From: Micromussa lordhowensis
Taxonomy: Eukaryota; Cnidaria; Anthozoa; Scleractinia; Lobophylliidae
Assembly (NCBI GenBank): GCA_964020085.1
Contig: OZ026600.1
Coordinates: 19,590,194 to 19,654,193 of the forward strand
Length of the DNA: 64,000 bases
Reading direction: 5' to 3'
The position numbers were made by a program, and so were the translations under genes. Below, piece by piece: positions 55,289 to 63,081 of the stretch (position 1 is the stretch's first letter; each line of letters opens with the position of its first letter). The notes under the pieces were generated by a model that saw only the letters and a program-made list of their open reading frames with translations, was not told the DNA's origin and did no database searches.

Positions 55289-55664
55289 TACGGGGCGCCG
55301 TACTGGACAATATTGCAAACATTACTTATATGTGCTTAACTCCTACTTAACGTGACATACTTTATCTTTGTTATGGTCATTGCGATATAATTATGACAAA
55401 ATCTAAATAAACGTGCTAAACTTACTTTATATTCTGCAGTCATTGTCATTTAACCATGCCAAAGTCTAAATAAACATGCTCAATTTATTTTATATTCTGT
55501 CTGGTCATTGTCACATAACCATGCCAAAATCTAAATAAGCATGCTCAACTTACTCTATACTCTGTATGGTCATTGTCATATATCCATGCCCAAATACACT
55601 TTTATTTAGCATTCAAATTCCTATGCGTATGCAGTATGGTATGATGCACCGCGCGCCTGTACGA
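55289..55664. repeat. Left terminal inverted repeat with 64-bp subrepeats
   Basis: About 375 bp, the inverse of 62708-63081. Inside, units of about 64 bp start at roughly 55371, 55436, 55501 and 55566, each with tggtcattgtca-like and aaataa(a/g)catgctca words. Subterminal repeats are commonly transposase binding sites. Confidence 0.9.
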
Positions 55665-55749
55665 CAAAATCGTCACCAGATCTCCCTCAGCTAATGCAAG
55701 ACCGCCATGTTGGATGTTTTACCACGTGCTTTCAGTGATCAGCTGAGTA

Positions 55750-58334
55750 ATGGAGGAAAGGAGCAAAGATTTTCGAGAAGCGTTATCAAATATCGCTCGT
55801 CAGGCAAGGTCATTGTTGCAAAATTTTAATGATAGTAATGTACAGCCTATTGAACAACGAATGTTGGAACAAAGACCTCGTGATTCGGGAAATATATCGG
55901 CGAGAACGCCATCATCAAGTCAGGCTAATGTAAACAACAGCAATGTGGAAAGCACAGCGGTGGCCGCACAGTTAAGGAACTTATTTCCGACTGTTGGTAA
56001 AAGATCATTTGGTGGTAAGTCGTTGAATAGCAAGTGTATTAAAGGTAAGAAGCCTCCAGCCAAAAAAGCAAAGAAAGATGTAGTGCATAAAGACGTGGTT
56101 CTTCTTCCTTCTCCTGACACGAAGTCAGTGCCTACCCACCAGACGCGATGTCGGTTGGAATACAACGGATTTGTTGTTCATGCATTTCCAGTAGACAAGC
56201 CCCTGCAGGAAGAAGATCTTCGAGCTCAAATTAGAGAGTTATTCCCATCCCTTGCAGAAACAGACTTTGAATTTGTAAAGTCCTGTTACGGTCAAATTAT
56301 TACACCAAAATTGGCCACTGGTGTACATTTCTCAGCTTCACGTGTTCTTGGCCTTGCTGGACAAGGGAGCATATACATTCGACCAGAATGTGATATCTCT
56401 GCCAGTCTTTGTAGTGACACTGATAGTCCTCCCCAGAGTCCTGAACATTATCCAAGTGGTGGACATCCAAGCCAAAGTTCACTGCTTCCTGAACAAGTGG
56501 AAATTGCTGATGATGGCGAATGCAGTGGTTTGTCAAATGTTTCATACCTTTCAACTGCAGCAGCAGTGCAACAAATCGACGAGGGCTGGATAAGTTAAAA
56601 GATATGTTCCCTGGGAAAAGCACCAGTATCCTGCAGAATGCCCTTACCTGCCATGGGAGTGTCAGCCGGGCTGCTCTTTCCCTCTCCTCCCAAAATCTCC
56701 CTTTTGAGAGTGACACTGGTGATGAAGGTGATGATGATGATAGCCTCTTGGAGCCTGTTTTCTCCCCAGCAAATGGAAAAGCAGATTCCCTGGATACAGT
56801 GTTGAAGGAACTTCAGAAAGGTTTGAGTACCCAGAAAGAAAAGCTCAAAGTTGACGAAGAGGATGTTTTCAATGATGTGATGGCCTACTATAAAGATCCC
56901 AGCTTTGATCCTTCAAAGCGACTAAGAATCCTTTACTCAGGACAGCCAGCTGTGGACACAGGTGGAGTAGCCAGGCACTTCTTTAGCCAGCTTCTCCAAG
57001 TCATACAGTGTATCTCAGATGTTCTTCCAGGGCACCAATTACAAAAGTCCTGTTTATAATGCCGACATTGTAGCTTCTGGTATGATGAAATACATTGGAA
57101 CAATCATTGTGCACAGCATTTTGCAAGGAGGTCCTAGTTTCCCTGTGTTTAGTCCCTCTGTTTATCGCTACATAGCAACAAGGGATGTTGATACAGCAAT
57201 GGATACACTGAACTATGGAGACTGCTCAGAGCCCGTGAAAAATATTATTGACAAGGTATTGTACATGTTATGTCTTTGTGTTGCATACTAACAATAATGT
57301 TGATTCGTCTCTTCCCTTTTAAGTTGTTTGCTCTTTAAATAAGTTCTATCTTTCAAAAAGTGCTGGTGCTACCTGAAGGGAAGTCAGCCTCTTTGTTTAT
57401 ATCAGAGCCAAGGTGGACAGAAGGTGACAAAATTTATAATATTATTTCCCACCCAACTAGGTATGAGGGAACTGTAAACACATGAAAAATGATGCTGGCA
57501 TCAATGTGCACTGTCTATTGAATGAACATAAACTTGAAAAGATTTATCCTTAAGGAAGGAAGGACTGATCGCAATATTTTTTATTAACAGATTGCCCAGG
57601 CTGAAGATGTCTCCACACTTGACCAAGAAGAATGTGCTAGTTTCTTGTCTGAATGTGGCCTGCCAGTAGTGTTATCTGTAAGTCTTGAAAAGATAATAAT
57701 ACTAGAAAGTGATTTCTTGAAAATTTCTGATTTAAGGCAAGTTCCTTTTTTTCATTTCACAATAATAGTTTATTTAGTGTCCCAAGCTATCATAGGAGTT
57801 CTTTACCCCCAAAACTAAAGTAAATGATTTTATTTTTCAGAATGACAACAAAATGAGGGTAATTCAAGGGATAATAATTCACGATGTCATAAGCCGACCC
57901 AAGATTGTTCTAGATCAGCTTGGAGAGGGTCTGGCTTTCGAGCTAAAATGGCAGAGTGCCCTGACATGTTTGAGAAGCTGTTTGTGCCTAGCATTGATAG
58001 TAGGTTGAGTGCAGCACAATTGGTTAATGTACTACAGTTTCCATCGGAGATGAGTGAAGATGACAGAACTGTTGCAAATTACCTTAAACAGTACTTACAT
58101 AAGGCTGATATTGAAATGCTTGAAAATTTTGTCTTTTTTGTCACTGGTTCCTCTAGTTTGCCCAACTTCGGATTAAGTAGAATCAATGTAAAATTTGACA
58201 ATGTCCCTTCTATTTTTGCATCAACATGTTTTCTTTTATTAACTCTTCCAAATTACTTTGAAAGTGAAGAAAGTTTCAGTTTATTGCTAAATGCTGTCAT
58301 TGGTTCTGTAAAGAAATCCTTCAACTGTGTGTAA
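55750..58334 (+). pseudogene. HECT-domain E3 ubiquitin ligase on the transposon, broken in this copy
   Basis: It starts MEERSKDFREALSNI. The N-terminal about 275 residues are basic and Ser-rich with a KKPPAKKAKK nuclear-signal-like patch. Next is a short CUE-like stretch (DKLKDMFPGKSTSIL), an acidic linker, then the HECT domain: LRILYSGQPAVDTGGVARHF, NYKSPVYNADIVASGMMKY and the C-lobe with active-site cysteine in IFASTCFLLLTLPNY. Two introns with normal signals are seen, 57256-57590 and 57678-57840. Frame breaks lie near 56585, 57020 and 57935, so this copy is probably dead. HECT enzymes accept ubiquitin on the cysteine and pass it to a substrate. Its position inside the inverted repeats, on the opposite strand to the transposase, marks it as transposon cargo. 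Confidence 0.85.
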
Positions 58335-61102: not shown

Positions 61103-62661
61103 TTATGTTCTAATTATTCCTGAAAGCATAGCATGAACAACCCCTACAAGCTCGACATATTTGGGGATTCTTTCATCTTTTCTTAGGTTTGTTGGTACCA
61201 AGGAATGAAGGTGGTCTAGTTGACTTCCACTCAAAGGTATGTTACTGCTTGGAACAACTACCTCTTGATCCTCCTCTGCAACAAAACTGTCATCTTCATC
61301 TACTCCGTACCAAAACAGTTCGTCCTCTGTTAAAATGACTGACATCTAATGGCGAGTTCTTGTCAATTGCAGTTCTTAAAATGCCCTCAGTCCAAAGCTG
61401 AAGAGGAGATGAACCACCTTCCGTGCTAAGACCATGGTAATTCCATTGTCTGGTAAATTCTTCCAGAGATTTGTTAATTTCCTGTGAATACACAAGATGA
61501 AGTGATAACAAATGAACTTCATTAACAGGGTCTAACAGGCCAGAAGTTTCCATCATGTTAAACTCGTCTATATAACTTTTGAGAACACCACTGGTTACAT
61601 CCCTATGAAGCCGTTCCACTCTTTGATTGTGAACTGAACTTCCAGTTATCATGCTTCCTCTGTTCACTCCCCGGCACTCCAACATCATTCGGGCCACGCC
61701 CATGTTTAAGACCATGGTCACTTCTAACTCTTGAAGGTATGCCATACGATTGGCAGGTATTCTGAAACAATTCAAGTACTGTATCTGATTTGTTATTGTC
61801 TGCACAGTACATATATGGTATCAACCTGGAATATCCATCAATAGCGGTATGTACCACAAATCGCCAACGTATCATCTTGTGATTTCCGTCTATGTGCCAG
61901 AGGGCATTTGGACATCACACATTGTACTTTCGTCTACGTATGGTCCCTCTCCACCGAAGTGCTGTTCCAACTGGATCCAGCTCGCGCATCATCTCTCGGA
62001 CTCTCCATCGCTGCACTCGTATTCCCCTGCTTTGTAAAGCACCTAACATCCGGGTTTGACCAATTCCAGGAGTGATAGTCGTTATTTCTTGTATGATTTC
62101 CCTTAGTTCACCATTTCCAGTGGCAGACCAGTTCATCTCTTCCTCGTCATCGATTTGAAACTCTTACCGCCTTCTAGTTAGGGTTTTTGTGGAGATTCCG
62201 AGAAGTTCCGCTATTCTGACCCAAGGAAAGTGTAACTCTCGGAGAAATAGTATTTGCCTTTTGGAAACCTCCAGTTTCGGTTGACCTCTCATACCTGTGT
62301 ACTCCCTCTTACATTGGTGGGCTGGCCCACTAACTGTGTCTTCACGTAAATAATCTGCCATATTCTCAAAATAGATTCGGAGCCTGGCCAAGTGTGTGGA
62401 CAGCTCATCCATGTTGCTATGAAAATTTGCCATTTCTAAATCACGATCTGAATTGATGAGTTCGGAAGCTCTCTCTTTCAAAATAAAAACAGTTTCCCCA
62501 GCTTCTGAAAGCCTTTCGTGCAACATTTCTATTCTGTCTATGTCCCCAGCTGATGAAAATGCATAAATGCATTGTTCTGCTTCGGCAAGTAGTGCTTTTG
62601 TCCGTTCAAAAAACGATATGAGTCGATTCTCTGATCCACCGATACCACCAAGAGCCGCCAT
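61103..62661 (-). pseudogene. DDE integrase-like transposase (IS3EU-like), broken in this copy
   Basis: It starts MAALGGIGGSENRLISFFER. Residues 1-130 are a predicted coiled coil, followed by a helix-turn-helix (FPWVRIAELLGISTKTLTRR). The catalytic domain shows the three acidic positions: Asp in [14 protein letters not shown], Asp in SRVRSDHG, and Glu in [12 protein letters not shown]. The C-terminus is acidic (DELFWYGVDEDDSF). Two stop codons interrupt the frame (62164-62166 and 61915-61917), and frameshifts occur near 61690 and 61345, so the protein is not made intact. The D-D-E spacing and the order helix-turn-helix then integrase core resemble bacterial IS3 transposases. Confidence 0.88.
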
Positions 62662-62707
62662 TTTGGTTCAGTCACTGCCCGCGAGAGACCTGGTAACAAA
62701 ATGAGCT

Positions 62708-63081
62708 CGTAAAGCGCGCGGTGCATCATACCGTACTGCATACGCATAGGAATTTGAATGCTAAATAAAAGTGTATTTGGGCATGGATATATGACAATGA
62801 CCATACAGAGTATAGAGTAAGTTGAGCATGCTTATTTAGATTTTGGCATGGTTATGTGACAATGACCAGACAGAATATAAAATAAATTGAGCATGTTTAT
62901 TTAGACTTTGGCATGGTTAAATGACAATGACTGCAGAATATAAAGTAAGTTTAGTACGTTTATTTAGATTTTGTCATAATTATATCGCAATGACCATAAC
63001 AGAGATAAAGTATGTCACGTTAAGTAGGAGTTAAGCACATATAAGTAATGTTTGCAATATTGTCCAGTACGGCGCCCCATA
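62708..63081. repeat. Right terminal inverted repeat with 64-bp subrepeats
   Basis: The inverse of 55289-55664. The extreme end reads ggcgccccata. The 6 bases after it (ctggct) pair with caggct before the left end as the imperfect target duplication. Confidence 0.9.

Follow-up and report, generated by a model that had tools for sequence, protein, structure and literature searches.

A 64,000-nucleotide stretch of contig OZ026600.1 from the coral Micromussa lordhowensis (the window) contains a ubiquitin ligase gene of the HECT type next to a transposase gene, both enclosed by long inverted repeats. The locus raises the question whether the ligase is a regular component of a transposon or a host gene caught up in one. 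The initial annotation had proposed a DNA transposon with a HECT gene inside its ends, and the inverted repeats, the ends, the flanks and both genes are borne out by the analysis. The locus is very probably a degenerate cut-and-paste transposon of the IS3EU/GingerRoot type, in whose lineage a ubiquitin ligase with ubiquitin-like, CUE-like and HECT domains is the standing second gene.

Boundaries and inverted repeats

The transposon is 7,793 bp long (55289-63081; Table 1). It starts with TACGG and finishes with CCATA, in agreement with the TAC...ATA ends first noticed. The arms, originally put at about 375 bp, are indeed long but measure 368 nt each, and they are 99% complementary, with 4 mismatches in 368 positions. 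The 24 bases adjoining the TAY end are found at exactly two places in the window, one in each arm; two matches were obtained in none of 100 shuffles. Within each arm a 65-bp unit is repeated 3.7 times, and these subterminal arrays are candidate transposase-binding sites.

The near-matching 6-mers reported on the flanks are present as CAGGCT and CTGGCT. They agree at five of six bases, with one mismatch; among pairs of 6-mers taken from both flanks, about 0.5% agree equally well. When the flanks are joined with a single copy of the 6-mer, the reading frame is uninterrupted, which is weak support for precise insertion.

The two genes lie on opposite strands, as had been described, and converge, but they are separated by one or two nested elements placed between their stop codons. 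The inner nested element has its own 93-bp inverted repeats, which are 99% alike, and a perfect 7-bp duplication, GTGAGTG. It possibly sits inside a second one.

Table 1. Features of the transposon and its surroundings (window positions)
Feature	Position	Strand	Basis
Putative target-site duplication, left 6-mer CAGGCT	55283..55288	.	sequence
Left terminal inverted repeat, starts TACGGGGCGCC	55289..55656	+	inverted-repeat pairing, shuffle test
Subterminal 65-bp array within left inverted repeat, 3.7 copies	55358..55595	+	repeat analysis
Left repeat, inner end; encodes MQYGMMHRA	55629..55655	+	translation compared with HECT relatives P0002, P0004
HECT exon 1: N-terminal helix, basic cluster, ubiquitin-like, CUE-like, HECT start	55750..57255	+	relatives P0001-P0018
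Basic cluster KKPPAKKAKK in HECT exon 1	56047..56076	+	alignment A1
CUE-like ubiquitin-binding domain, approximate bounds	56586..56700	+	
HECT intron 1, GTATTG..AACAG	57256..57590	+	splice borders; join compared with P0167, P0181
HECT exon 2	57591..57677	+	relatives
HECT intron 2, GTAAGT..TTCAG	57678..57840	+	splice borders, relatives
HECT exon 3: remaining HECT N-lobe and C-lobe	57841..58334	+	PF00632, 9.5e-11
Predicted catalytic-cysteine codon, HECT C-lobe (FASTCFLLLTLP)	58227..58229	+	alignment with TC of HERC6, HERC5, E6AP chains
Possible outer nested element, not part of transposon proper	58705..60196	.	21-nt ends, 95% complementary
Inner nested element, not part of transposon proper	58943..60133	.	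93-bp inverted repeats, 7-bp duplication
Transposase gene, integrase-type DDE core	61106..62661	-	PF24764, rve; relative P0019
Predicted transposase catalytic codons	D 61888-61890, D 61717-61719, E 61614-61616	-	derived from sequence
Right terminal inverted repeat, finishes GGCGCCCCATA	62714..63081	-	inverted-repeat pairing, shuffle test
Subterminal 65-bp array within right inverted repeat	62775..63012	-	repeat analysis
Putative target-site duplication, right 6-mer CTGGCT	63082..63087	.	sequence

The transposase gene

The proposed DDE integrase-like transposase is confirmed by matches to PF24764 in two frames of the gene (7.3e-39 and 1.6e-32) and to rve (7e-8). The gene starts 52 bp inward of the right inverted repeat and is broken by two in-frame stops and two frame changes; its relative P0019 has an open frame of 518 aa at 96% identity. 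In alignment A2, which holds 38 of the 120 transposases listed among 571 matches, each of the two predicted catalytic aspartates is present in 38 of 38 sequences and the glutamate in 37. Upstream of the DDE core, a loose HHCC pattern was found in one of these 38 relatives (P0053) and is absent from P0019, in which a weak HTH_23 match lies below the cut-off.

The HECT ligase gene

The ligase gene is on the plus strand and starts 93 bp inward of the left inverted repeat. PF00632 is found in one open frame of the window (9.5e-11; 42.3 bits against a cut-off of 23.9) and over residues 432-683 of the HECT read-through (8.3e-13). The two introns are both bordered by GT..AG, and the exon joins, compared by eye, match relatives that run on continuously at those points (P0167 and P0181 at intron 1). 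An intron-containing HECT gene with its cysteine had been claimed; the introns, the profile match and the cysteine position hold, but the gene is broken by three frame changes, two in exon 1 and one in exon 3. With stops and frame changes across both genes an intact copy is rejected, and this copy makes neither ligase nor transposase intact.

The product combines ubiquitin-like, CUE-like and HECT domains, which is not known from any named animal HECT subfamily. The Pfam CUE profile is matched at E up to 1 in all 18 HECT-gene relatives, with scores above the cut-off of 21.1 bits in P0007 (27.5) and below it in P0001 (15.7) and P0017 (13.6). The basic cluster, which resembles a nuclear-localisation signal, keeps 5 or 6 basic residues in each of the 17 A1 relatives that cover it (P0008 does not). 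The HECT profile scores 47.1 bits in P0167 and 31.0 in P0181; at E 0.01 no Pfam family is matched by P0177 or P0185. A first structural model (mean pLDDT 44.4) gave no Foldseek match at E 0.001, whereas for a model with a mean pLDDT of 57.8 all 50 matches listed, of 104, are HECT ligases (best E 1.4e-3; TM-scores 0.20-0.39 by query length). The A1 profile matched nothing in the PDB below E 0.057.

A profile search recovered 65 relatives of the gene. Open frames of 401-567 aa cover exon 1 in sixteen protein clusters (P0001-P0016), which are 44-94% identical to the read-through, and P0017 and P0018 match as well. This openness is in part a selection effect, since most of what the protein database contains is open frames. 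The mean pairwise identity, counted in 17 of 18 rows (P0018 left out), is 0.75 in the HECT N-lobe, 0.71 in the ubiquitin-like domain and 0.56 in CUE, and 0.40, 0.34 and 0.34 in the three linkers. By this measure, the domains are kept while the linkers drift.

Association of the two genes

Two other HECT clusters, P0002 and P0004 (89% and 85% identity), start with nine residues, MQYGMMHRA; the left repeat encodes them at its inner end, and the right arm encodes them too (62741-62715). Relatives of both genes were found in Xenia, which is an octocoral (soft coral). There, LOC124453910 (HECT) and LOC124453911 (transposase) have consecutive numbers, and each is on a contig of 1,119,675 bases; this numbering and contig size, from which the Xenia neighbours are known, suggest that the two genes travel together. 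Matching contig sizes were seen by eye only in Xenia among the 65 HECT relatives and the 120 listed of 571 transposase matches. The A. millepora relatives of both genes, LOC122949535 and LOC122955897, are on contigs of unequal size. The HECT clusters have up to 272 member sequences, a size that suggests many copies, with the qualification that members may stem from many samples.

Almost every HECT relative in the protein database is without visible genomic context, and a second DNA-level copy of the transposon was not found in the viral-contig or genome-contig collections searched. The data examined, which held no second DNA copy, contained neither a copy of the element lacking the HECT gene nor a HECT gene at one host locus outside the repeats, the two observations that the initial annotation had listed against its own proposal.

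Possible mechanism and role of the ligase

Because each gene starts just inside one repeat and the genes converge, each arm probably supplies a promoter, along with transposase-binding sites. Judging from the anatomy, the transposase would cut at the TAY ends and insert the element with a 6-bp duplication. The near-identical arms suggest that this broken copy was mobilised by enzymes from intact copies. The ligase would most likely act in trans in the nucleus, where its ubiquitination target would be either the transposase or a host protein of chromatin or DNA repair; transposition would then either survive silencing or be kept within tolerable limits. The initial annotation had already named silencing factors or the transposase as possible targets. 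The transposon may tag proteins to help itself. A host protein is the slightly favoured target; the transposase is a distinctly less probable one.

If the transposase were the target, the ligase would regulate or clear the transposon's own enzyme instead of disarming the host. The joint travel of the two genes (the P0002 and P0004 leaders and the Xenia pair) is consistent with such self-limitation, and the CUE-like and ubiquitin-like domains would suit the handling of a ubiquitinated partner. Nothing found, however, sets it apart from action on a host protein, and we regard it as rather unlikely.

The HECT protein might also be catalytically inactive, its fold being kept for a different task such as binding DNA or protein as a second subunit. 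The domain is divergent: in a single-sequence search the C-lobe aligned with the TC of the solved HERC6, HERC5 and E6AP structures at E 0.01-0.03. The residue preceding the cysteine varies, being T or A. The cysteine itself, however, is at the catalytic position in all three sequences that cover it (alignment A3, 20 proteins and one window ORF), and a phenylalanine is fourth from the end, an important position in HECT ligases, in three of three. An idle domain is improbable.

Less probable still is incidental cargo: one copy would have captured, or landed around, a host HECT gene, and the pair would share neither history nor function. DNA transposons are known to pick up pieces of host sequence, this copy has both genes broken, and the database entries for HECT relatives almost all lack visible context. 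The repeat-encoded leaders and the Xenia pair argue against such a capture, which is largely rejected on these grounds; the cluster sizes, possibly multi-sample, point the same way.

Relation to known transposons and ligases

In the available text of PMC10045372, IS3EU elements have TA..TA ends, usually 6-bp duplications and an integrase-like DDE transposase without the HHCC domain, and Ginger1 is described with that domain. Fungal TET-positive IS3EU elements have TAYGG..CCRTA ends, 6-bp duplications and, as accessory genes, an alpha-kinase and a TET/JBP dioxygenase, according to the available part of PMC12730594. The coral end motif agrees with both definitions. Compared by published descriptions, the transposon is not of a new type: in its ends, putative duplication length and transposase type it follows IS3EU/GingerRoot as described. 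A new superfamily unrelated to IS3EU/GingerRoot is very improbable and was rejected on the end motif and transposase type. In its favour, the comparison was with descriptions, and the open-access literature searched yielded no HECT gene in IS3EU, but the terminal motif, the putative duplication length, the transposase type and the missing HHCC all suit IS3EU.

The coral element differs from published IS3EU/GingerRoot elements in its HECT gene, the words HECT and ubiquitin being absent from the available text of PMC10045372, which also makes no mention of 368-bp arms with internal 65-bp repeats. The fungal elements share their terminal motif with it, and their alpha-kinase gene is opposite to the transposase, as the HECT gene is here; they differ in their fungal hosts and accessory genes, and the available part of PMC12730594 lacks the words HECT and ubiquitin. 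Ginger1 has the integrase-type DDE transposase in common with the coral element, whereas its HHCC domain was not found here.

With HECT E3 ligases (PF00632; the HERC5/6, E6AP and NEDD4 families) the coral protein shares the HECT profile, the catalytic-cysteine position and, by the low-scoring Foldseek matches listed, a putative fold; here it is transposon-borne and joined to ubiquitin-like and CUE-like domains. Ubiquitin-ligase activity is also tied to a transposon-derived recombinase in RAG1/ProtoRAG, where the RING is within the recombinase itself, whereas the HECT protein here is separate.

In the open-access literature (Repbase and closed-access work were outside the search), no paper was found with 'IS3EU' and 'HECT' together or with a HECT gene in a transposon or coral context, and 'transpos' has 0 occurrences in the available text of PMC2837046. 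The initial annotation knew of no described superfamily with this gene pair as its standard layout; the superfamily is very probably IS3EU/GingerRoot, and what stands is that no HECT-carrying IS3EU was found in that literature.

Implications

Many eukaryotic DNA transposons have a transposase only, or one helper added. It can be proposed, tentatively, that an entire lineage of animal IS3EU elements may depend on its own ligase as a fixed second component that ubiquitinates a host silencing or repair factor in the nucleus. If true, the HECT ligase would be the counterpart of the alpha-kinase and TET genes in fungal IS3EU elements, and the second-gene slot of the superfamily would serve generally for counter-defence. 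Some viruses act directly on the host protein-tagging system; if a transposon-borne ubiquitin ligase is conserved, a selfish element would do so too. Some of the coral genes that carry the annotation 'G2/M phase-specific E3 ubiquitin-protein ligase-like', among them the HECT relative P0177 of Acropora muricata, could be transposon genes. The ligase would give a testable handle on the resistance of animal transposons to silencing and on the control of transposons in cnidarians.

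The element and its superfamily

The two arms of the transposon are alike across 368 nt with four mismatches and terminate in TACGG and CCATA, which bears out the initial annotation of inverted repeats of about 375 bp with TAC...ATA ends. The outer 24 bases of the arms occur nowhere else in the window, and a 65-bp unit is repeated 3.7 times inside each arm. The flanking 6-mers, rightly described as near-matching, are CAGGCT and CTGGCT, equal at five of six positions, a level reached by about 0.5% of flank 6-mer pairs. Fusion of the flanks with a single copy of the 6-mer leaves a frame open through the junction, as is expected of a clean insertion.

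Features of the transposon (window positions)
Feature	Position	Strand	Characteristics
Transposon, whole element	55289-63081
Left arm, inverted repeat	55289-55656
Right arm, inverted repeat	62714-63081
Integrase-type DDE transposase gene	62661 to ~61106	minus	PF24764 and rve
Nested element	58943-60133		93-bp inverted repeats (99%), perfect 7-bp duplication GTGAGTG

The element fits the IS3EU/GingerRoot superfamily. In PMC10045372, IS3EU is grouped together with GingerRoot and has TA..TA ends and, usually, 6-bp duplications; in PMC12730594, TET-positive IS3EU elements of rust fungi have TAYGG..CCRTA ends, and in all of these TET-positive elements the TET/JBP gene is flanked by the transposase and by an oppositely oriented alpha-kinase gene. 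These fungal elements resemble the present one in having the transposase on one strand and a protein-modifying enzyme on the other. In the open-access literature searched, no paper combined 'IS3EU' with 'HECT' and no report of a transposon-borne HECT gene of this kind was found. The initial annotation named no described superfamily with this gene pair; the superfamily is most probably a known one, and what is new within the literature searched is the HECT gene.

The two genes

The assignment of a DDE integrase-like transposase is upheld by its profile matches and by the aligned transposases: both aspartates are present in 38 of 38, 37 of the 38 retain the glutamate, and 1 of the 38 shows a loose HHCC pattern. 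The window's gene is interrupted by two in-frame stops and by two frame changes. Its relative P0019, in which the frame is open (518 aa), shares 96% identity with it over the full length. Among the best 120 listed of 571 matches, named relatives include Acropora, Dendronephthya, Paramuricea, Xenia, Clytia, fish, sponge, beetle and fungus.

The recurrent second gene encodes a HECT domain with its catalytic cysteine, and ubiquitin-related domains. Two HECT relatives, P0002 and P0004 (clusters of 30 and 7 member sequences), share 89% and 85% identity with the window's protein read through its frame changes. Both start with MQYGMMHRA, which the window encodes twice, at 55629-55655 in the left repeat and at 62741-62715 in the right. 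After these nine residues the leaders continue to agree with the window, at 68-85%, as far as the HECT start and beyond, with one small insertion and with frame changes on the window's side. An independent, distant case of the pair, judged by the relatives' gene records, is provided by the octocoral Xenia sp. Carnegie-2017, in which the HECT relative P0181 (LOC124453910) and the transposase relative P0075 (LOC124453911) each come from a contig of 1,119,675 bases. The named HECT and transposase relatives of A. millepora lie on contigs of different size, which counts against pairing. Comparison by eye of 65 HECT rows with the 120 listed of 571 transposase rows gave no further relatives on equally long contigs, and no second DNA copy of the element was matched in the viral-contig or genome-contig collections.

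Nested element and state of the copy

The nested element sits between the stop codons of the two genes, and perhaps a second one, likewise between them, surrounds it. Its minus-strand ORF (59758-60075) gave no Pfam match at E 0.001 and includes LPTGYGKPLI, which we take to be similar to the RecQ-helicase Walker A motif; its middle is an imperfect palindrome of ~550 bp (59142-59690, 70% identity). In P0186, another HECT relative, the HECT frame continues into a stretch resembling the tail of the reverse transcriptase of a retrotransposon, which suggests a nested insertion within another HECT copy.

The coding sequence (~3.6 kb) holds seven disabling lesions, and the arms have diverged by ~0.5% each. 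Because arm divergence is low relative to the seven lesions, the genes had probably lost function before the copy moved, mobilised by the enzymes of intact copies; the contrast could also stem from conversion between the arms or from sequencing errors.

Other features of the window

A palindrome of ~1,000 bp (38669-39672, 93% identity to its own reverse complement) and smaller ones (54181-54741, 20234-20395, 17264-17324, 45694-45751 and 42149-42205) are perhaps foldback or miniature elements. LTR-retrotransposon-like ORFs occupy 32721-36688, with an RNase H match above the Pfam cut-off and sub-threshold matches to protease, reverse transcriptase and integrase zinc domain; a direct repeat of ~154 bp (31432-31585 and 36865-37017, 96%) may form the terminal repeats. 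A dispersed 367-bp repeat is inverted between 11972-12338 and 41666-42032 (93% identity). One uninterrupted 337-aa frame (26505-27518) spans the entire ribonucleotide reductase small-chain profile (PF00268, 1.5e-112), so that this region has no intron; adjoining it on the opposite strand is a tentative PEX6-like gene (24709-26361, under cut-off; 20828-21622, AAA).

Constraint and proposed function of the HECT protein

Across 17 of the 18 HECT relatives' rows, the domains are more alike than the linkers: pairwise identity averages 0.75 for the HECT N-lobe, 0.71 for the ubiquitin-like domain and 0.56 for the CUE-like domain, whereas three linkers reach 0.40, 0.34 and 0.34. This contrast favours constraint on the protein, as judged from sequence comparison; open frames are a weaker sign of it, because the protein database is enriched for them. 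The protein would act as a ligase and, judging by its basic cluster, in the nucleus, and may benefit the element. We think that the likeliest target is a host chromatin or repair protein, and next the transposase itself.
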